64,000 nt of DNA from Actinomycetes bacterium (GTDB lineage: Bacteria > Actinomycetota > Thermoleophilia > BMS3ABIN01), in the NCBI GenBank assembly GCA_021787475.1, contig JAJYLW010000001.1, positions 124,001 to 188,000 on the forward strand, given 5' to 3'. Below the pieces are notes generated by a model that had not been told where the DNA came from, did not search any database, and saw only the letters and a program-made list of their open reading frames with translations. Shown one piece after another: positions 8,827 through 60,418 of this stretch (the stretch's first letter is position 1; every line of letters begins with the position of its first letter). The position numbers and the translations under genes are program-made.

Positions 8827-9447
8827 TTATTGCCTTCTTCCCGCCGCCTGATGCAGTTTTTCCCTCAGCTCTTCAACGTCCGCCGGTGTCGCCTCAAAGC
8901 CTTCAATCGGCGGCAGCGCTTCCAGGCCGGAAAGGCCGAACAGCTTCTCGAACACCGGCGTCGTCCGGTAGCGGATGGCCCCGGTCTCGCTGCTGCGGCC
9001 CGCCTCCATCAGCAGGCCCTTGTCGGCAAGGGTGTTAACGACGGTGTCGGCGCCGACGCCGCGAATGCGGGCGATCTCGGGGCGGGTTACCGGCTGAAGG
9101 TAGGCGATGATGGCCAGCGTTTCCATTGCCGCCGGCGAGAGCGAGTAATCAGGAGGCCGCGCGCAGAAGCGCTCGACGGCGGCGCGGGCAGAGTCGGAGG
9201 TCCTGAAAGTAAAGCCTCCGGCGACCTCGGTGAAAATGATGCCGCCGTTTTCCGGCGATAATTTTTGCCGCAGGGCCTCGATGGCTTCCTCCAGCTCCCG
9301 CCCTTCCGCGCCGGTAACCTCGGACAATGTCCGCAATGACACCGGTTCGGGAGAGATGAAAAGCACGGCTTCGATATCGCGGGCCAGCCCGGAAGTTCCG
9401 AGTTCCGAGTTCCGAGTTCCGAGTTTTTCATTTTCTTCATCCATCAA
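8827..9447 (-). CDS. scpB: Segregation and condensation protein B
   Basis: The kleisin-binding winged-helix subunit of the SMC-ScpAB condensin. The 206-residue protein has two winged-helix domains, with SPAAMETLAIIAYLQPVTRPEI and IRGVGADTVVNTLADKGLL as the family core. The conserved fold begins at GLARDIEAVLF, near residue 20. The first ~19 residues (MMDEENEKLGTRNSELGTS) are encoded by a heptanucleotide array. No ATG, GTG or TTG lies between the array and the conserved fold, so the start must be at or before the array. It precedes rluB and follows scpA. Confidence 0.92.
   Translation of the reverse strand: MMDEENEKLGTRNSELGTSGLARDIEAVLFISPEPVSLRTLSEVTGAEGRELEEAIEALRQKLSPENGGIIFTEVAGGFTFRTSDSARAAVERFCARPPDYSLSPAAMETLAIIAYLQPVTRPEIARIRGVGADTVVNTLADKGLLMEAGRSSETGAIRYRTTPVFEKLFGLSGLEALPPIEGFEATPADVEELREKLHQAAGRRQ
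9391..9427. repeat. Heptanucleotide array, GAGTTCC type, inside the 5' end of scpB
   Basis: Four near-perfect GAGTTCC units lie within the translated N-terminus of scpB, where they encode KLGTRNSELGTS. Confidence 0.85.
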
Positions 9448-23525: not shown

Positions 23526-25334
23526 TCATCCTCTCTCATAGCCTCTTTTCGTAATCATCTTTCCATGTCGGAGTTCAGTTTGGGAGTTGCCGATGATAAT
23601 AATCGTCCGCATGTCAATGCCGGCCGCAGGCAGGCCGTCAAGAACGCCGGCATGAATGGATTCATTGGGGCCACCCGCGTCTCTGACCCAGCCGACCGGG
23701 GTTTCAGGCGGCCGCGCTTCAACAAACATCTTGCGTACATCTGAAAAGAGGGTCTGCCTGTTCTTGCTGGCCGGGTTGTAAAGGCAGACAACCATGTCCG
23801 ACGCGGCCGCGAGACGGGCGCGGCGGATCACCTCGGCGCGCGGGGTCAACAAATCGCTGAGGCTGAGCGTGATGTAATCGTTCATCAGCGGCGCTCCCAG
23901 CCTGGCCGCCGCGATCTGGGCGGCGGTCACTCCTGGAACAACGGCAACGCGGACACCATCCTCGCCGGCGGCCCGTTCGAGAAGCGGCCCCGCCATGCCG
24001 TACACGCCCGCGTCGCCACTGGAGACAAGGGCAACAGTGCGCCCACCGGCAGCCAGTTCAAGGGCCTGCCGGCAGCGGTCAAGCTCGGTGCCCATCGCCC
24101 CGGAGATATATTCCTTGCCGGGAAAAATCAGGCTCAGCTGTTTGACGTAAGTGCGATAACCAATGACCACCTCGGACGCCTCGATCGCCCGGCGCGCCTC
24201 TTCGGTGAGCAGCGCCGCGGTGCCGGCGCCCGCGCCAATAACAAAAATGCGGTTATCTTTTTTCCCCGGCGGCAAACCGTCCGTAGCGGCCGCCAGCGCC
24301 ACCGTCACCGGGCCGGCAATCGTCTTGCCCGCCAGCAGGTTCCCCCGTTTCCCGGCCGCCAGCAGGGCCGCCGGCTCGCAGACGGCAGCGGTTCCCACCT
24401 GTTTCTCCACGAAGGCCGACCCGGGCCGGTTCACGGCCTCCAGCTCGTCAGGCGAATAAAAGACAAGCCCGGCCTCGAGCTCAGCGGCGGCGGCGGCAAG
24501 CCCGGGTTCATTCCGCTTTGCCTCGACAGTGGCCAGCACGCCAACTGCGCGCCGGTCAACGCCGGTTTCCCGGCAAACGCTGCTGATAGCGTCGATGATG
24601 GTTTTCGCACTCGCTCCGCGGCGGCAGCCAACGCCGGCCGCCACCGACCGGCAGACCAGCCGCGCTGTCGGTATCCGTGGAAGCAGTTCGCCGGCGCGGG
24701 CTGCTTCGGATCCGTTGCCTGGTGTTTCGAAAGTGACAAGCAGCCTGGCGGCAAAGTCACCGCAATCTTCGCCGGAGGGAATCCAGTGATATCCGGGCAT
24801 TCCCGGATCCTGCGGCGCCTCGATGCACACCGGCCTGCCGTCGATCAGCAAGGAGGCAACCTTGCGCAGCTGACGGCGATCATCAACAACGGCGCCCAGG
24901 CGGCGTGCCACCTCGTCGGGCGCCACCAGGCCCCGAACATCACTGGCCGTCGTTATCACCGCCGCGGCGCCGAGAAAATCGGCAATCTCCCGGGCAAAAG
25001 CATTGGCGCCGGCGGCGTGGCCGCCGAGCAATGGCACCACGTGTCTGCCATTCTCATCAATAACGATCACAGCCGGATCATCCTGCTTGGACTTAAGACA
25101 TGGAGCCAGCACCCGAAAGACGATGCCGGCCGCCATCACGCAGACAGCTGTTTCGCCGGCCGCGAAGCTCTGCGGTAATGCCTCGCTGATGCTGTCAAAG
25201 GGATCGCAATGGCGGCAGCCCAGACTTTGGCACCGGGGCAGGTGCGCCACCCCGCCGAAGCAGTCGCGCAGCTTCAGGGCAAGCAGGGCGCCGCCGGCAG
25301 TTAGCGAGAAATAACTGATGCGGCGGCCGTTCAC
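23526..25334 (-). CDS. cbiGH: Fused cobalt-precorrin-5A hydrolase (CbiG) and precorrin-3B C17-methyltransferase (CbiH)
   Basis: A 602-residue fusion. Residues 1 to about 350 are CbiG, which opens the delta-lactone and releases acetaldehyde (AAGIVFRVLAPCLKSKQDDPAV, then PLLGGHAAGANAFA). From about 362 (RIFVIGAGAGTAALLT) to the end is CbiH, an SAM-dependent ring-contracting methyltransferase (VALVSSGDAGVYGMA, VVPGVTAAQIAAARLGAP, DMVVCLYNPASKNR). The two act close together in ring contraction. Its start overlaps cbiF by 4 bp. Fusions of these two enzymes are known elsewhere. Confidence 0.94.
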   Translation of the reverse strand: MNGRRISYFSLTAGGALLALKLRDCFGGVAHLPRCQSLGCRHCDPFDSISEALPQSFAAGETAVCVMAAGIVFRVLAPCLKSKQDDPAVIVIDENGRHVVPLLGGHAAGANAFAREIADFLGAAAVITTASDVRGLVAPDEVARRLGAVVDDRRQLRKVASLLIDGRPVCIEAPQDPGMPGYHWIPSGEDCGDFAARLLVTFETPGNGSEAARAGELLPRIPTARLVCRSVAAGVGCRRGASAKTIIDAISSVCRETGVDRRAVGVLATVEAKRNEPGLAAAAAELEAGLVFYSPDELEAVNRPGSAFVEKQVGTAAVCEPAALLAAGKRGNLLAGKTIAGPVTVALAAATDGLPPGKKDNRIFVIGAGAGTAALLTEEARRAIEASEVVIGYRTYVKQLSLIFPGKEYISGAMGTELDRCRQALELAAGGRTVALVSSGDAGVYGMAGPLLERAAGEDGVRVAVVPGVTAAQIAAARLGAPLMNDYITLSLSDLLTPRAEVIRRARLAAASDMVVCLYNPASKNRQTLFSDVRKMFVEARPPETPVGWVRDAGGPNESIHAGVLDGLPAAGIDMRTIIIIGNSQTELRHGKMITKRGYERG

Positions 25335-26170
25335 GCCTCTGCCTTCCCGTTGCGGCGTCCAGGCTCGCGGCCCTTGCGAAATCCGTGGGAAAAATCTCCC
25401 GCGTATAGCATGGATTCATCGCCTTTCTGTTCCAGAGCGGCGCCCACCAGGATAATCGCGGTGCTGTTAATGCCTTCCTTTTTCATCGCCGCCGCCAGCT
25501 GCGCCAGGCGCGTGCGGATTATCTTCTCGTCCGGCCAGCTGGCCCGTTGCACTACCGCCACCGGCGTTTCGGGAGGATAATGCCGCTCCAGCTTTGCCTG
25601 CACCTTTGCCGCCAGGCCGGCGCTTAAAAAGATTGCCATGGCCGCCTGGTGCTCTGCCAGAGAGCTGATATCTTCCCGCTCCGGCGCCGGCGTCCTGCCG
25701 GCCGCCCTGGTGATGATCACGGTCTGGGAAACACCCGGCACGGTCAATTCGACAGGAAGGGCGGCGGCGGCGGCGGCCAGCGACGAGACGCCGGGAATGA
25801 CCCGGGCGCTGACACCGGCCTGCCCAAGCCTGGCAATCTGCTCTTTTATGGCGCCAAAAAGAGAGGGGTCGCCGCTGTGGAGCCGCACCACCTTCCGCCC
25901 CCTGCGGTTTTCCTTGACCATTATCTTTATTATGTCATCGAGGCAGAGGCGTGAGCTGTCAACCAGGTCCGCCTTCCGGTTCAGCGCCAGCAGAACCGGG
26001 TTGATCAGGGAGCCGGCATATATAATCGTGTCCGCCTGCTCAAGCAGACGCATTCCTTTTAGCGTGATCAGCTCGACGTCGCCGGGACCGGCGCCGACGA
26101 AATAAACAACATTCTTCGTTCCACGTTTCGCGTCTTGCGTCTCCTCTGTGCTTTCAATCTTCTCTACCAT
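25331..26170 (-). CDS. cbiF: Cobalt-precorrin-4 C11-methyltransferase
   Basis: A 279-residue SAM-dependent tetrapyrrole methylase: VYFVGAGPGDVELITLKG near residues 22-39, YAGSLI, VRLHSGDPSLFGAI and GVSSLAAAAAAL are the CbiF/CobM landmarks. The fold begins at residue 22. Residues 10-20 (EETQDAKRGTK) are encoded by a heptanucleotide array. No ATG, GTG or TTG lies between residue 1 and the fold, so this array-derived segment must be translated. The start codon itself lies in a second array that also forms the end of cbiL. Confidence 0.93.
   Translation of the reverse strand: MVEKIESTEETQDAKRGTKNVVYFVGAGPGDVELITLKGMRLLEQADTIIYAGSLINPVLLALNRKADLVDSSRLCLDDIIKIMVKENRRGRKVVRLHSGDPSLFGAIKEQIARLGQAGVSARVIPGVSSLAAAAAALPVELTVPGVSQTVIITRAAGRTPAPEREDISSLAEHQAAMAIFLSAGLAAKVQAKLERHYPPETPVAVVQRASWPDEKIIRTRLAQLAAAMKKEGINSTAIILVGAALEQKGDESMLYAGDFSHGFRKGREPGRRNGKAEA
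26116..26145. repeat. Heptanucleotide array inside the 5' end of cbiF
   Basis: Units GTTCCAC, GTTTCGC, GTCTTGC and GTCTCCT on the plus strand are translated as part of the CbiF N-terminus on the minus strand. Confidence 0.75.
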
Positions 26171-26243
26171 CAGCCATCCGGTTTTTCGGGTTTATCCAGC
26201 ATCCAGGATCCGGCATCCGGTTTTTCACCATCCACCATCCGCT
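26167..26243. repeat. Heptanucleotide array spanning the cbiL stop and cbiF start
   Basis: Units GCATCCA, GGATCCG, GCATCCG, GTTTTTC, ACCATCC, ACCATCC keep the 7-nt period. On the minus strand they encode the last ~20 residues of CbiL, its stop, and the cbiF ATG. Confidence 0.82.
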
Positions 26244-26991
26244 CATTGGGTTGAATCCATACAATTGCAAAGTAGGGGAGCTTCTCGGCGGTGGCGCGGT
26301 CCAGCGGACTGATGATCTTCTCATCGGCGCCGCCCAGTTCGACGGCGGCGCCGGCGCGGCTCCAGGCGTCAAACTCATCAAGCAGGTCAAAAGCGGCCAG
26401 CGGCATCGCCCTCGGCTTGAGAATGACAATCGAAGCATTCATTCCGATCGCGGCTCCAAGCGACCTGACGTCGGCGCCGGTAATCACGCTGGTGGGCGTG
26501 TCTCCCGACGCCAGCGGCAGACCGGCGGCGGCGGCGGCGGCGCTCATGGCCGGGACGCCCGCCACCACCTTGACCGGCCCCGGATACCTGACAGCCAGGT
26601 AGCCAAACGTGCTGTAAAACAAGGGGTCGCCCAGCGACAGGCAGGCGATATTCCCATCCCGGCCTGCTGCCGCCAATAGCCGGGCGGCGTCCGCATGCGC
26701 CCGCTCAAGCCGCTGCCGGTTCCTGGTCATCGGCATCAGCAGTGGCAGTTCTTTTTTGCCTCCGTCCACATACCGGCGCACGGTTTCAAAGGCGCGGCTG
26801 GCGCCTCCCTGGCGGTGAATCGGAAAAGCGAGAACCGGAGCTGCGCGAATTACCTCGACCGCCCTGATGGTTACCAGGCCCGGATCGCCTGGCCCCACGC
26901 CTACTCCGAATAAAGTTCCGAGTTCCGAGCCCCGCGTTCCGAGTTTCCCGGTTTTGGGTTTGAGGCTTGTGGTTTCGGGTTTATTCGACAT
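26170..26991 (-). CDS. cbiL: Precorrin-2 / cobalt-factor II C20-methyltransferase
   Basis: A 273-residue SAM-dependent methylase adding the C20 methyl group that is later lost in ring contraction. Landmarks: LFGVGVGPGDPGLVTI (27-42), LPLLMPMTR, IACLSLGDPLFYSTFGYL and VVAGVPAMSAAAAAAGLPL. Residues 9-26 and the final ~20 residues (from about 254) are both encoded by heptanucleotide arrays. Codons 2-30 contain no ATG, GTG or TTG, so the array-derived N-terminus must be translated from the ATG at 26991. Confidence 0.93.
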   Translation of the reverse strand: MSNKPETTSLKPKTGKLGTRGSELGTLFGVGVGPGDPGLVTIRAVEVIRAAPVLAFPIHRQGGASRAFETVRRYVDGGKKELPLLMPMTRNRQRLERAHADAARLLAAAGRDGNIACLSLGDPLFYSTFGYLAVRYPGPVKVVAGVPAMSAAAAAAGLPLASGDTPTSVITGADVRSLGAAIGMNASIVILKPRAMPLAAFDLLDEFDAWSRAGAAVELGGADEKIISPLDRATAEKLPYFAIVWIQPNERMVDGEKPDAGSWMLDKPEKPDG

Positions 26992-27076
26992 TCGTCATTT
27001 GCCATCCGACATTGGGCTTTTCATTCCGTATTCCAAAATCCGCCTTCCTCATTTGAATCATCCGCCATCCGGTTAT
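26914..27076. repeat. Long heptanucleotide array between cbiET and cbiL
   Basis: Starting AGTTCCG, AGTTCCG, the units drift through AGTTTCC, GGTTTTG, GGTTTGA, GGCTTGT, GGTTTCG, CATTCGT, CATTTGC and CATCCGA to CCATCCGG. It is about 160 bp, the longest array seen. It covers the cbiL start and touches the cbiET stop. Confidence 0.8.
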
Positions 27077-28471: not shown

Positions 28472-29605
28472 CTACCAATCTGCCTTCCCCACGATCGCGC
28501 CACCGCCATCCGTTAAAAAAACCTCCACCTTCAAGCCAAATTCCTTTGACGCCTTCGCCGCCGACCGCCGGGCCACCTCATCCAGAACCTCTCTCCTGCC
28601 GGCCTCAAGAAGCTTCTTGATCGCCGCCTCGGTGGTCGGCAACAGGGCCAGGGCCCGGGCCTGGCGGCCGCTTAATCCGCAGGATCCGGCTGCATCAGCC
28701 ACCACGTCAAGGGGCGCCGGCGACCGGCGCGAATGGGTGTCAAAATTGCCGCGCGCCAGTTTGGCCAGCTTGGCGGCATGGCCGAGTAGCGCCAGTCGCC
28801 GGAAGCCGCGCCCGGCGGCCGCCTCCATCATCATGCCGAGGAAATTGCCCGCCTGCACAATCGCCACCGGATCAAATCCGGCGGCAACTGCTGCTTTCTC
28901 CCCTTTCGCCCCCGGCACCAGCACCGGCACCCTAACTCCGGCCGCCCGCGCCACGTCAAGCTGAGGCAGCAACGATTCCTGGTAGGCGACCCGGGACCAG
29001 GGCTCGACGCGGCCGGTTGTCCCCAGGATGCTGAGGCCGCCGGCGATGCCAAGCTTCGGGTTAAAAGTCCGCGACGCCAGTTGTTCGCCTCCGGGAATGG
29101 AGATAATGACTTCAGCTCCGCGGGGAAGCACCCGCCGCGCCTCATCCCGGATATGCCTGAGCGGAACCGGGTTGATTGCCGGCCGCCCCGGCCTGATGGC
29201 AAGCCCTTCCCTGGTCACTCGGCCGACGCCTTCGGCCCCGTCAACGTAAAAGCGCCCGTCCTGCCGGGCAACGACACAGGCAAAAATCCGGGCGCCGCCG
29301 GTGATATCCGGGTCGCTGCCGGCGTCCTTGCGCACCGAGCAGACTCCCTCACGGTGGATGACGGCTTTAAAACCGGCTGTCTCACCGTTGGGCAGCGTTA
29401 TCTCAACCGCGCCCGGCTTCTCCGGGCTGCCGGGGTGCGTCCCGTCCTTGCCTGCCCCGCAGGAAACGCCGCCTGCCGCCACCGTCAGGGCCGCCGCCCG
29501 CGCCGCTGCCTGGGCGCAGGCGCCGGTTGTAAACCCGCGCCGCTGACCATTAACAGATTGTCTCCGGTTTCCTGTTTCGGGTTTCAAATTCGGTTCCAGG
29601 TTCAA
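28472..29605 (-). CDS. cbiD: Cobalt-precorrin-5B C1-methyltransferase
   Basis: A 377-residue enzyme of the oxygen-independent pathway. The CbiD signature RRGFTTGACAQAAARAA lies at residues 22-38. ISIPGGEQLASRTFNPKLGI, LSILGTTGRVEPWS and LLGHAAKLAKLARG follow as expected. The only usable start codons are TTGs at residues 1 and 7, both inside a heptanucleotide array that encodes the first ~16 residues. CbiD is diagnostic of the anaerobic route. It follows cbiO. Confidence 0.93.
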   Translation of the reverse strand: MNLEPNLKPETGNRRQSVNGQRRGFTTGACAQAAARAAALTVAAGGVSCGAGKDGTHPGSPEKPGAVEITLPNGETAGFKAVIHREGVCSVRKDAGSDPDITGGARIFACVVARQDGRFYVDGAEGVGRVTREGLAIRPGRPAINPVPLRHIRDEARRVLPRGAEVIISIPGGEQLASRTFNPKLGIAGGLSILGTTGRVEPWSRVAYQESLLPQLDVARAAGVRVPVLVPGAKGEKAAVAAGFDPVAIVQAGNFLGMMMEAAAGRGFRRLALLGHAAKLAKLARGNFDTHSRRSPAPLDVVADAAGSCGLSGRQARALALLPTTEAAIKKLLEAGRREVLDEVARRSAAKASKEFGLKVEVFLTDGGGAIVGKADW

Positions 29606-29612
29606 GAGTTCA
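29560..29612. repeat. Heptanucleotide array covering the cbiD start
   Basis: Units GTCTCCG, GTTTCCT, GTTTCGG, GTTTCAA, ATTCGGT, TCCAGGT, TCAAGAG are in register. On the minus strand they encode the first residues of CbiD, including its TTG start. Confidence 0.8.
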
Positions 29613-32803: not shown

Positions 32804-33913
32804 TTATCGGGCTGCGCCCAGCCGCAACAGCGCATTTACGATTGCCGCAGCGATGTTGCTGCCGCCCCTGTTGCCCGGCAGGGTGATATGAGGAATGTCC
32901 GTCCCCGCCAGCGCCTGTTTGCTCTCAGCGGCACCGACGAAACCGACCGGCACGCCGATCACCAGCGCCGGCCTGAGACCCGCCTCGCGCTCCAGCCGCA
33001 GCACTTCCAGCAGCGCCGTGGGGGCGTTGCCGATAACAGCGACAGCGCCGCCCAGACCGAAGCGGCCGGCCAGCAGTCTGATGCCGGCGGCGCAGCGGCT
33101 GATACCGGCGGCGCCCGCCAGGTCCGCGGCTTCGGCTTCGGCAACGGCGCAGGCAACGGTCAGCCCCGTCCCGGCGGCGGAGGGAGTGATCCCCGCCGCG
33201 GTCATGTTGACATCACAAATAATTGGCGAGCCAAGAGCGAAGGCTTCGGCGGCCGCCGCCACCGCGCCGCGGGAAAAAACCAGCGCCGCCGCCAGCGACG
33301 GGTCGCCGCTGGCATGGATTACCCGGCGGACAACCTGGTACTCAGGATCTTCATTGTCGTCAATTCCCAATATCGCGTCGATGATGGTAAAACTCTCCTT
33401 CTCAATCTCCTCCCCCAAGGCAACGTTGCTTGCCCTGAGCGTTTTGGTCTCAATCGTTTCGCGTTTAACGTTTAACGTTTCACGCCACTGATTTACACTT
33501 TTAGCTTTATCCGCTGTCCACGACCCCGCTGCCAGAATCCGCTTTATCATCACTTCCATCAGCTGCCCGTCAATGCCTAATGGCTTTGCCAGCACCAGCT
33601 CCACCTCGGCCAGCTCCGCCCGCAGCGATGCCAGCTGGGCGGGGATGTCGCGCTGCATGTGGTTTCCCTCGTAAAGGAAATAAGGTGCAATAATGATGCG
33701 GCGAAACCCCGCCGCCGCCAGTTTGTGGCAGCAATCGGCCAGTGTCGGCTGGTTGAACTGCAGCGAGGCCGCCAGGGCCGTGCAGCCGGTGCGCTCGCTC
33801 AGCCCTGCCGCCACCCGGGCAAGCAGCCCGGCGGCCCCCGGCGCCCGGCTGCCGTGGCCGAGCACGACAATGGCGGCGGCGCCGTTGTCCTTGCCGGAAT
33901 CATTGCGCGGCAC
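32804..33913 (-). CDS. cbiXC: Fused sirohydrochlorin cobaltochelatase (CbiX) and cobalt-precorrin-8 methylmutase (CbiC)
   Basis: A 369-residue fusion of the first and a late corrin step. Residues about 14-135 are the small CbiX chelatase (VLGHGSR; RIIIAPYFLYEGNHMQRDIP with the metal-binding His). Residues about 165-369 are CbiC, which migrates the C11 methyl to C12 (VIHASGDPSLA, IICDVNMTAAGI, ALVIGVPVGFVGAAESK). The linker (about 143-160) contains RETLNVKRET, a translated heptanucleotide array. It is the last gene of the cobU unit and overlaps cbiA by 14 bp. A riboswitch for the next unit follows. Confidence 0.93.
   Translation of the reverse strand: MPRNDSGKDNGAAAIVVLGHGSRAPGAAGLLARVAAGLSERTGCTALAASLQFNQPTLADCCHKLAAAGFRRIIIAPYFLYEGNHMQRDIPAQLASLRAELAEVELVLAKPLGIDGQLMEVMIKRILAAGSWTADKAKSVNQWRETLNVKRETIETKTLRASNVALGEEIEKESFTIIDAILGIDDNEDPEYQVVRRVIHASGDPSLAAALVFSRGAVAAAAEAFALGSPIICDVNMTAAGITPSAAGTGLTVACAVAEAEAADLAGAAGISRCAAGIRLLAGRFGLGGAVAVIGNAPTALLEVLRLEREAGLRPALVIGVPVGFVGAAESKQALAGTDIPHITLPGNRGGSNIAAAIVNALLRLGAAR
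33455..33484. repeat. Heptanucleotide array inside the CbiX-CbiC linker
   Basis: Units CGTTTCG, CGTTTAA, CGTTTAA, CGTTTCA lie in frame within the cbiXC gene, exactly between its two domains. Confidence 0.85.
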
Positions 33914-58662: not shown

Positions 58663-60418
58663 TTTTTTGCTTTTTGTTGAGCGAAAGCAACAAAAGCAAA
58701 AACATATTTTAACGGGGGCCAAGATTAACAGCAAACGTGCAGTCACGGGCGCAATTTCCGAAGAAAAGCTGTATCCTTTCACGCAACGTCTCCGTTTAAT
58801 TGTTCTGGCGATTCCTGTTGTTGTGCTGGCGATGTTTCTTGCCGCCACGGCCAGCGGGGCCGGCGTGATCATGAGGGCTTCCACCGATGCGGCCGGCAAC
58901 CAGGGAAACGCCGCCAGTCAGGACGCCTCCGTCTCCGCCGATGGTCGCTACGTCGCCTTTGATTCAAATGCCTCCAATCTCGTTTACGGCGACACCAACG
59001 GCACCACCGACGTTTTTGTCAAAGACACGCAAACAGGCGCCATTTCGCGGGCTTCTACGAACTCTTCCGGGGGCCAGGTGCCGGGAAACAGCACCCATCC
59101 TTCAATTTCTGCGGACGGCCGCTACGTCGCCTTTACCTCATCCGCCTGTAGCCTGGCGGCAGGTTACTGTTACCGGAACACGACCAATATTTACATCAAG
59201 GACATGAAAACGGGAGCGGTCTCCCGGGTTTCCGCTGACACATCCGGGAATCCCGGCAACGGCAGCAGCGTCTGGCCGGCGATCTCCCCTGACGGCCGCT
59301 ATGTCGCCTTCGACTCAACCGCCTCAAACCTTGTGCCCGGCGATACCAATTACACGACTGATGTCTTCGTCAAGGACACCTGGACCGGCGCGATATCGCG
59401 CGCATCTACGGACGCCGGCGGCAACCAGGGAAACAACTATAGTCAATATCCATCTATCTCCGCCGACGGGCGGTATGTTGCTTTTGAGTCGTTTGCCACA
59501 AACCTGGTGCCGGGCGACACCAACAATAATGCGGATATTTTTATCAAGGACATGTGGACAGGAGCCATCTCTCTTGCGTCCGCCGACGCCTCCGGGAACC
59601 AGGGGAATCAATGGAGCTACAATCCGTCAATCTCCGCCGACGGGCGCTATCTGGCCTTTGAGTCTGCGGCCACCAACCTGACGCCCGGCGACACCAACGG
59701 CAACATTGACGTATTTGTCAAGGACATGTGGACAGGGATGATCTGGCGGGCATCGACGGATGCGGCCGGCAACCAGGCAAACGACTGGAGCTACAACCCT
59801 TCCATTTCGGCCGATGGCGGCAACGTGACCTTTTATTCCGGAGCCAGCAATCTGGTGCCGAATGACACGAATGCTGCCAGCGATATTTTTATCAAAAATT
59901 ACCAGTCCGGAGCTATCTCACGGGCATCAACCGACTCCTCCGGCAACCAGGCAAACGGCGGCAGCGAATATCCCTCTATCTCCGCCAACAGCAGCTTTGT
60001 CGGCTTCGATTCCGTCGCCACCAACCTGGCGCCGGGCGACGCCAACGGCGCCGCTGACGTTTTTCTGGCAACCGGCTCCGGCGCCTCTTGCCCCGGCGGC
60101 AAGCCGGCCCTGGCGTTAAGCGAAGCCCGGGCCTACTGGGCCAGCCTCACCGATTACAATGCCGGTAACCTCAGTGTCGATTACGAGGTTGCCGACAGTG
60201 GCAGCATCCCCGCATACGTTGTCGAGATTACCAGCTCGACGGCAAACAACGGTGTGGCATCCCTGGCGTCAATGCCTTTGCCTCTTGGCAATATCATTGC
60301 CGGCGACTCGCACCCGTTTACGGTTAAATATACCGTCCCCGCCGGCGTCACCGCTTTCAGAACGTCAATGGCCGCCTCGGCCGAAGACGGCTGTAGCACA
60401 ACCTACAATTATCCGTAG
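58634..60418 (+). CDS. Secreted seven-bladed beta-propeller (TolB/PD40-like repeat) protein
   Basis: The frame covers up to 594 residues. A hydrophobic signal segment (LRLIVLAIPVVVLAMFLAATASGAG, about 54-78, split here LRLIVLAIPVVV plus LAMFLAATASGAG) suggests export. Seven repeats of about 58 residues follow, each with an S(I/V)SADGRYVAF strand, a NLVPGDTN loop and a D(V/I)F(V/I)KDMWTGAISRAS end, enough for one closed propeller. Repeat 7 is degenerate. The last ~140 residues form a beta-rich domain with two cysteines. The start is uncertain: TTG 58634 is inside the promoter, and TTG 58667 or a later start is more likely. Function unknown, possibly surface binding. Confidence 0.82.
   Translation: MTYLSCWSKIFLLFVERKQQKQKHILTGAKINSKRAVTGAISEEKLYPFTQRLRLIVLAIPVVVLAMFLAATASGAGVIMRASTDAAGNQGNAASQDASVSADGRYVAFDSNASNLVYGDTNGTTDVFVKDTQTGAISRASTNSSGGQVPGNSTHPSISADGRYVAFTSSACSLAAGYCYRNTTNIYIKDMKTGAVSRVSADTSGNPGNGSSVWPAISPDGRYVAFDSTASNLVPGDTNYTTDVFVKDTWTGAISRASTDAGGNQGNNYSQYPSISADGRYVAFESFATNLVPGDTNNNADIFIKDMWTGAISLASADASGNQGNQWSYNPSISADGRYLAFESAATNLTPGDTNGNIDVFVKDMWTGMIWRASTDAAGNQANDWSYNPSISADGGNVTFYSGASNLVPNDTNAASDIFIKNYQSGAISRASTDSSGNQANGGSEYPSISANSSFVGFDSVATNLAPGDANGAADVFLATGSGASCPGGKPALALSEARAYWASLTDYNAGNLSVDYEVADSGSIPAYVVEITSSTANNGVASLASMPLPLGNIIAGDSHPFTVKYTVPAGVTAFRTSMAASAEDGCSTTYNYP

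Follow-up and report, generated by a model that had tools for sequence, protein, structure and literature searches.

We analyzed a 64,000-nucleotide stretch of DNA (the window) from an actinomycete metagenome bin (G000; 1.84 Mb in 36 contigs, 98.7% complete). The minus strand of the window carries an anaerobic cobalamin cluster comprising cbiX-cbiC, an ABC component, cbiD, cbiET, cbiL, cbiF, and cbiGH. CbiL and CbiF both have the tetrapyrrole methylase fold and score above their family cutoffs, and the best Foldseek matches of CbiL are CbiL structures. Arrays of degenerate heptanucleotide units lie at the ends of both genes and elsewhere in the window (Table 1). Periodicity was measured as lag-7 identity relative to dinucleotide shuffles. 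Five tested array regions in the window gave identities of 0.49–0.62 versus 0.26–0.32 in shuffled sequence (z 3.4–6.1), and core segments of cbiL and cbiF, used as controls, showed no lag-7 signal (z 0.1 and -0.7).

Table 1. Genes and array features of the window, with their positions and supporting evidence
Feature	Position	Strand	Evidence
cbiF, cobalt-precorrin-4 C11-methyltransferase	25331-26170	-	TIGR01465 326.6 bits, cutoff 259.65
cbiL, precorrin-2 / cobalt-factor II C20-methyltransferase	26170-26991	-	TIGR01467 164.4 bits, cutoff 163.25
CbiF repeat-coded N-tail, residues 1-19 (MVEKIESTEETQDAKRGTK)	26114..26170	-	lag-7 z 3.2-3.4
TGATG, cbiL stop / cbiF ATG, 1-base overlap inside array	26168..26172	-	sequence
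CbiL repeat-coded C-tail, residues 251-273 (RMVDGEKPDAGSWMLDKPEKPDG)	26173..26241	-	lag-7 z 4.5 over 26168-26250
ELGT, CbiL residues 23-26, ancestral (GAACTCG GAACT), adjoins fold	26914..26925	-	ELGT or similar in array-free family members
CbiL ATG and repeat-coded N-tail, residues 1-25 (MSNKPETTSLKPKTGKLGTRGSELG)	26917..26991	-	lag-7 z 6.1
cbiET-cbiL spacer, degenerate array of GGATG- and AATGTCG-type units	26992..27072	-	lag-7 0.49 vs 0.27 shuffled, z 4.1
CbiD array-coded N-tail, TTG start 29603-29605 (LNLEPNLKPETGNRRQ)	29558..29612	-	lag-7 z 3.9-4.5
Array-coded linker (WRETLNVKRETIETKTL) between CbiX and CbiC domains, one ORF 32804-33913	33440..33500	-	lag-7 segment 33455-33484
ScpB N-tail, GAACTCG x4.5 (MDEENEKLGTRNSELGTSGLARD)	9376..9444	-	lag-7 z 4.9

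Repeat-coded ends of CbiL and CbiF

The lag-7 identity of the CbiL N-tail is 0.62 versus 0.27 in dinucleotide shuffles, a value matched by none of 2000. Three heptamers make 21 nt, or seven codons, and the peptide therefore repeats every seven residues (..KPETTSL/KPKTGKL/GTRGSEL/GT). On the coding strand, the heptamers that run from the cbiET stop (27073) to CbiL codon 26 are ..ATGTCGG ATGGCAA ATGACGA ATGTCGA ATAAACC CGAAACC ACAAGCC TCAAACC CAAAACC GGGAAAC TCGGAAC GCGGGGC TCGGAAC TCGGAAC, and the Pfam TP_methylase domain begins at residue 26. The initial annotation had heptamers coding residues of about 9–26. The array is in fact wider, beginning with the ATG, but the ELGT at its inner edge is ancestral, and to that extent we rejected an entirely new origin of the CbiL termini.

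At the other end of the protein, the NCBIfam CbiL match stops at residue 246. Residues 251–273, coded mainly by GGATG units, together with the TGA and the cbiF ATG, have a lag-7 identity of 0.51. The coding strand from the CbiL end to the CbiF start reads GGATGGT GGATGGT GAAAAAC CGGATGC CGGATCC TGGATGC TGGATAA ACCCGAA AAACCGG ATGGCTG ATGGTAG. The last residues of CbiL (about 20 by the earlier count) and its stop are thus repeat-coded as had been proposed, except that the RM(V/L)D opening the tail is common to this bin and two genus mates (G001 and G002). The cbiF start codon likewise lies inside the heptamers. CbiF codons 1–20 have a lag-7 identity of 0.53, and the segment singled out earlier, EETQDAKRGTK, is where the array is clearest (AGACGCA AGACGCG AAACGTG GAACGAA after the start). 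Pfam TP_methylase begins at residue 22 of CbiF. AlphaFold2 pLDDT values are ~50–52 for CbiL 1–20 and 251–273 and ~50 for CbiF 1–20, versus >90 for both cores; in these models, the repeat-coded tails are probably disordered and lie outside the fold.

No standard start codon separates either array from its fold, as the initial annotation had stated. An in-frame TGA lies two codons 5' of the cbiL ATG at 26991, and the first NTG after this ATG is GTG 26898 (codon 32), which falls in β-strand 1 between the invariant Gly31 and Gly33 of the GxGPGD motif. A search of cbiF between ATG 26170 and codon 40 found no NTG. The accompanying claim that the repeat-coded residues must be translated is supported to the degree that reading frames can indicate. 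One could instead suppose that CbiL begins at GTG 26898 and CbiF at a nonstandard codon past the array, the array being only leader RNA. A GGAG lies 5 nt upstream of this GTG, with GGAGTAGGCGTG giving good Shine–Dalgarno spacing, and a codon-usage predictor selected it. Initiation there would, however, forfeit β-strand 1 and Gly31, which every homologue keeps, and we rejected the predicted start on this ground; moreover, cbiF offers no comparable codon, and a leader RNA would leave the CbiX–CbiC linker and ScpB tails described below unexplained. We therefore consider this reading very improbable. That a simple predictor miscalled CbiL indicates that gene callers can miscall starts in array-rich genomes.

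The same gene edges in relatives

We compared the CbiL and CbiF termini at the loci of 17 relatives, whose stretches were picked around genes of interest. The tails are absent from the array-free relatives, and the corresponding positions in genus mates have other heptamers, start codons, and residues. In a CbiF and CbiL tree, G000 groups with G002, then G001, G003, and G004 in turn, with the first three clustering within the genus. The CbiF starts of these three each lie in an array of different units: an ATG 20 residues from the fold in G000, a GTG 8 residues away in G002, and only TTG codons at 8–10 residues in G001. In seven relatives of genus g6, CbiF starts 5 residues before the fold (e.g., MTETK-IYFLGAGPGD), mostly with a Shine–Dalgarno sequence, and several of them start CbiL a few residues before ELGTLYG.

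The CbiL N-tail changes from MSNKPETTSL.. in G000 to MMQLAARSSQLGT, coded by CAGCTCG x4, in G001 and to MNPELG, with the array upstream, in G002; in G003, TTG-NIELGT is the sole start on offer. The cbiL/cbiF junction of G002 is TAGTG and sits within a different array from the TGATG of G000. The earlier proposal that arrays create protein termini is thus supported for the tails, which are not shared among the relatives' loci, but not for ELGT and RM(V/L)D, which are inherited. Periodicity is significant in array-bearing orthologs and mostly null in array-free ones. The exception among the latter is G010 CbiL (z 3.5), with the signal coming from the codons GAACGCA GAACTTG GAACTTT; this score suggests that ancestral ELGTL codons could seed arrays.

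Other genes show related patterns. The only starts 5' of the CbiD domain are TTG codons, all in the array, and the situation is similar in G001 and G002. For CbiET, the start lies in an array only in G002, and G000 and G001 retain MVN[AE]KLHS[IL]YVIG. In G000 PdxT (L138:12022-12066), the TTG start is in an array, and ATCCACC x4.5 leads directly into IGVLALQG, which forms β-strand 1. The distance from start to fold is 14 residues here and 28 in G002, both with arrays, though different ones; among nine other family members, most without an array, it is 9–10 residues in eight and 11–12 in G007.

Because such tails recur in cobalamin-cluster proteins (CbiD, CbiL, CbiF, and CbiX–CbiC), a conserved peptide function such as docking or scaffolding might be envisaged. 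We find this hard to credit: the tail sequences differ among sister species, are predicted with low confidence (pLDDT ~50), and also occur in the unrelated PdxT and ScpB.

Arrays enclosed by coding sequence

In the ORF at 32804–33913, conserved domains stand on either side of an array in one frame (Pfam CbiX 20–122 and CbiC 169–364). The 102-nt linker between them has a lag-7 z of 3.5, and its peptide WRETLNVKRET.. is coded by GAAACGT TAAACGT TAAACGC GAAAC. Different arrays occupy the linker in G001 (CCGGATAAACCCGAAACCCGAAACCTGAAACCCGAAAC) and G002, and the lag-7 test was null for the linkers of G003 and G004. No choice of start or stop codon would avoid translating this array, which appears close to unavoidable short of cleavage or re-initiation. 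Barring nonstandard decoding, the linker would be the strongest case for arrays read as protein, and it adds an enclosed example to the termini noted initially.

In ScpB, the SMC_ScpB domain begins at residue 25. ScpB arrays are present in G000, G001, G002, G003, G005, and G007, and tests of G004, G006, G010, and G011 were null. In G001, G002, G003, and G005, the array has units particular to each species and is preceded by a conserved VVEK-like tail motif and followed by the fold; whichever start such a tail uses, the ribosome would have to pass through the array.

That arrays form the ends of CbiL and CbiF is confirmed, and the initial annotation understated it. Very probably, degenerate heptamer arrays spanning gene junctions overwrite gene edges and yield species-specific translated termini. 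In the sequence of events we propose, arrays lying across junctions in this genome and its genus mates would change their units and lengths rapidly, perhaps by slippage or recombination, and would grow into gene edges on the 5' and 3' sides or take their place. A gene whose original start region had been overwritten would be initiated at an array-borne ATG, GTG, or TTG (as in GGATG, GTGGATG, and TTGGAAC). Counting against this, array starts showed a tendency to be without a Shine–Dalgarno sequence (3/15 vs 160/394), which was not significant (p = 0.18). As seven nucleotides are not a whole number of codons, the frame shifts from unit to unit through all three possibilities, and units without a stop in any frame therefore give an open peptide with a period of 21 nt and seven residues until the fold is reached. 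At the 3' end, a gene that had lost its original stop would be read on into the array up to an array-borne stop; the cbiL stop, a TGA overlapping the cbiF ATG, would in this way preserve the stop–start overlap. The resulting species-specific, probably disordered termini would be tolerated because they lie outside the fold and may be nearly neutral. In conserved enzymes, arrays would then rewrite start and stop codons, termini, and a linker, fast enough for sister species to differ, making noncoding repeats a source of new protein sequence.

Array classes, polarity, and known heptamer repeats

We counted arrays (lag-7 score of at least 12) in a 464-kb sample of G000, consisting of its own stretches and the window, with gene starts taken from a simple predictor. 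The sample contains 66 lag-7 arrays, compared with 1–4 at control lags of 4, 5, 8, 10, 11, and 13. By location, 52 are co-directional, 10 convergent, 1 divergent, and 5 internal, and the share in divergent spacers (1/63) is far below the expected 23% (p = 1.6e-6). With a period of exactly 7 and a mostly intergenic position between co-directional genes, the arrays qualify on both counts as heptamer repeats. A further candidate, a tail of RibBA with a seven-residue period (L134; DRRENRDRRETLDRREK), had an array score of only 10 and was left out of the counts as weak. We also noted that pyrB, just 5' of pyrC, has its stop in a CGTTTCA-type array (L125:7671-7696), giving the C-terminus ..RFTFHV.

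The unit classes are GGATNNN, RAACNNN, CAGCTCG, and others. Across the G000 sample and the G001 and G002 stretches (L119–L142), GGATNNN precedes RAACNNN within 60 nt on the same strand at 22 distinct places, and the reverse order occurs at 1; reversed-letter controls gave 0 and 1. Sense GGAT runs in co-directional spacers are closer to the upstream stop in 22/28 cases (median 13 nt), and sense RAAC runs are closer to the downstream start in 35/53 (median 39 nt). In keeping with this placement, the CbiL C-tail is mainly GGATG-coded and most array N-tails are RAAC-coded, PdxT being an exception (ATCCACC, in reverse orientation). Sense units outnumber antisense units in both classes (RAAC, 53 vs 19; GGAT, 28 vs 15), and the purine strand of the arrays shows the same sense bias (30 vs 11, p = 0.004).

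This sense-strand bias, the depletion in divergent spacers, and the placement of GGAT after stops and RAAC before starts could mean that selection maintains the arrays for a role in translation or RNA processing (start accessibility, coupling, or protein binding), their coding being incidental; indeed, a translational role has been proposed for TAACTGA repeats (MacGregor 2015, PMC4679880). Against this, the lower folding energy near array starts, taken as weaker RNA folding, was gone after GC matching, sister species have different units at the same junction, and arrays also lie within coding sequence as a linker. Selection of this kind seems unlikely, if still a serious candidate, and is compatible with the overwriting of gene edges by arrays. 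The fixed order of unit classes, which simple slippage would not predict, is a new clue to array origin. It may hint that the arrays, rather than arising independently by slippage, were all copied from a single polar composite of heptads (GGATNNT units, then a GGATAAACCC-like junction, then RAACNNN units). Such an element would preferentially sit with GGAT toward one gene's stop and RAAC toward the start of the next, and a templated or recombinational mechanism would maintain it, rewriting gene ends and linkers proteome-wide; we regard this as doubtful.

Whole-genome counts, made over complete genomes rather than selected stretches, gave 156–196 RAAC triplets in each of G000, G001, G002, G003, and G005 (controls 7–19), 33 in G013, and 1 in G004. 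GGAT triplets number 27–104 in the same five genomes, 41 in G008, and 0 in G004. Counts are near zero elsewhere across the class, and the distribution within the family is patchy. G004, although of the same genus, has neither class, G008 has GGAT only, and G013 has RAAC only (GAACCAG). An assembly or binning artefact might be suspected in a metagenome bin, repeats being hard to assemble, yet the arrays are short, their units degenerate, and their frames open, and whole-genome counts show the pattern again in four more members of the genus, where control patterns are far rarer. We consider an artefact scarcely credible.

Rickettsia palindromic elements are mobile palindromic repeats of fixed length inserted in frame in protein genes, outside the folded core. 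There too a repeat becomes part of a protein, but the arrays here are direct tandem heptamers at gene edges, with inverted pairs among only a few other arrays. Simple sequence repeats, too, reportedly concentrate near coding termini (Lin and Kussell 2012, as cited in PMC4692102), where they are discussed as phase variation, whereas the present arrays are degenerate and supply starts and stops.

Among intergenic tandem repeats of prokaryotes, heptamers are the most abundant according to the SPADE survey, which states no clue to their function (PMC6344855); they share the period and location of our arrays, but the survey does not treat coding consequences. TAACTGA direct heptamer repeats of Beggiatoaceae and Cyanobacteria are intergenic near start codons with few Shine–Dalgarno sequences, and they overlap stops or code ORF ends in 25 putative Beggiatoa proteins (PMC4679880). 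They are, however, perfect repeats of a single invariant unit that has stops in one of its orientations, and their description did not compare termini among orthologs; the arrays here belong to many classes of unit arranged in a fixed order, force the choice of start in conserved enzymes, and also code a linker. The GGAT class closely parallels the G-rich heptamers of Xanthomonas and Nostoc (GGGAATC and GGGGA(T/C)T), which lie between co-directional ORFs, are depleted between divergent ones, and occur on the sense strand within 50 bp of a stop or overlapping it, mostly transcribed (PMC4692102). Those repeats form G-quadruplexes and are under-represented in coding regions (PMC4692102), whereas our dominant units contain only GG or GA, short of the runs of at least three G in each of four units that a G-quadruplex takes, and form composites with RAAC. 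Intergenic heptamers and their overlap with ORF ends are therefore known, and ortholog-resolved turnover of termini, a linker probably translated from an array, and array polarity are new; our literature search found no paper on repeat-coded termini with ortholog comparison, and neither the linker case nor the polarity appeared in the papers searched.

Several further repeats were observed. Inverted array pairs (GGAT.. then ATCC..) at L138:8688-8731, L131:12198-12260, and L137:6053-6176 could form long hairpins, perhaps terminators. Synergistales metagenome-assembled genomes (L062 and L063) carry GGAGGTA/GGAGTTA arrays near cobalamin genes, with a unit resembling a Shine–Dalgarno sequence every 7 nt. 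Finally, at positions 59282–59814 of the window, a 174-bp unit occurs three times in tandem, and the repeat it codes looks like a β-propeller blade (ISADGRYLAFES..).
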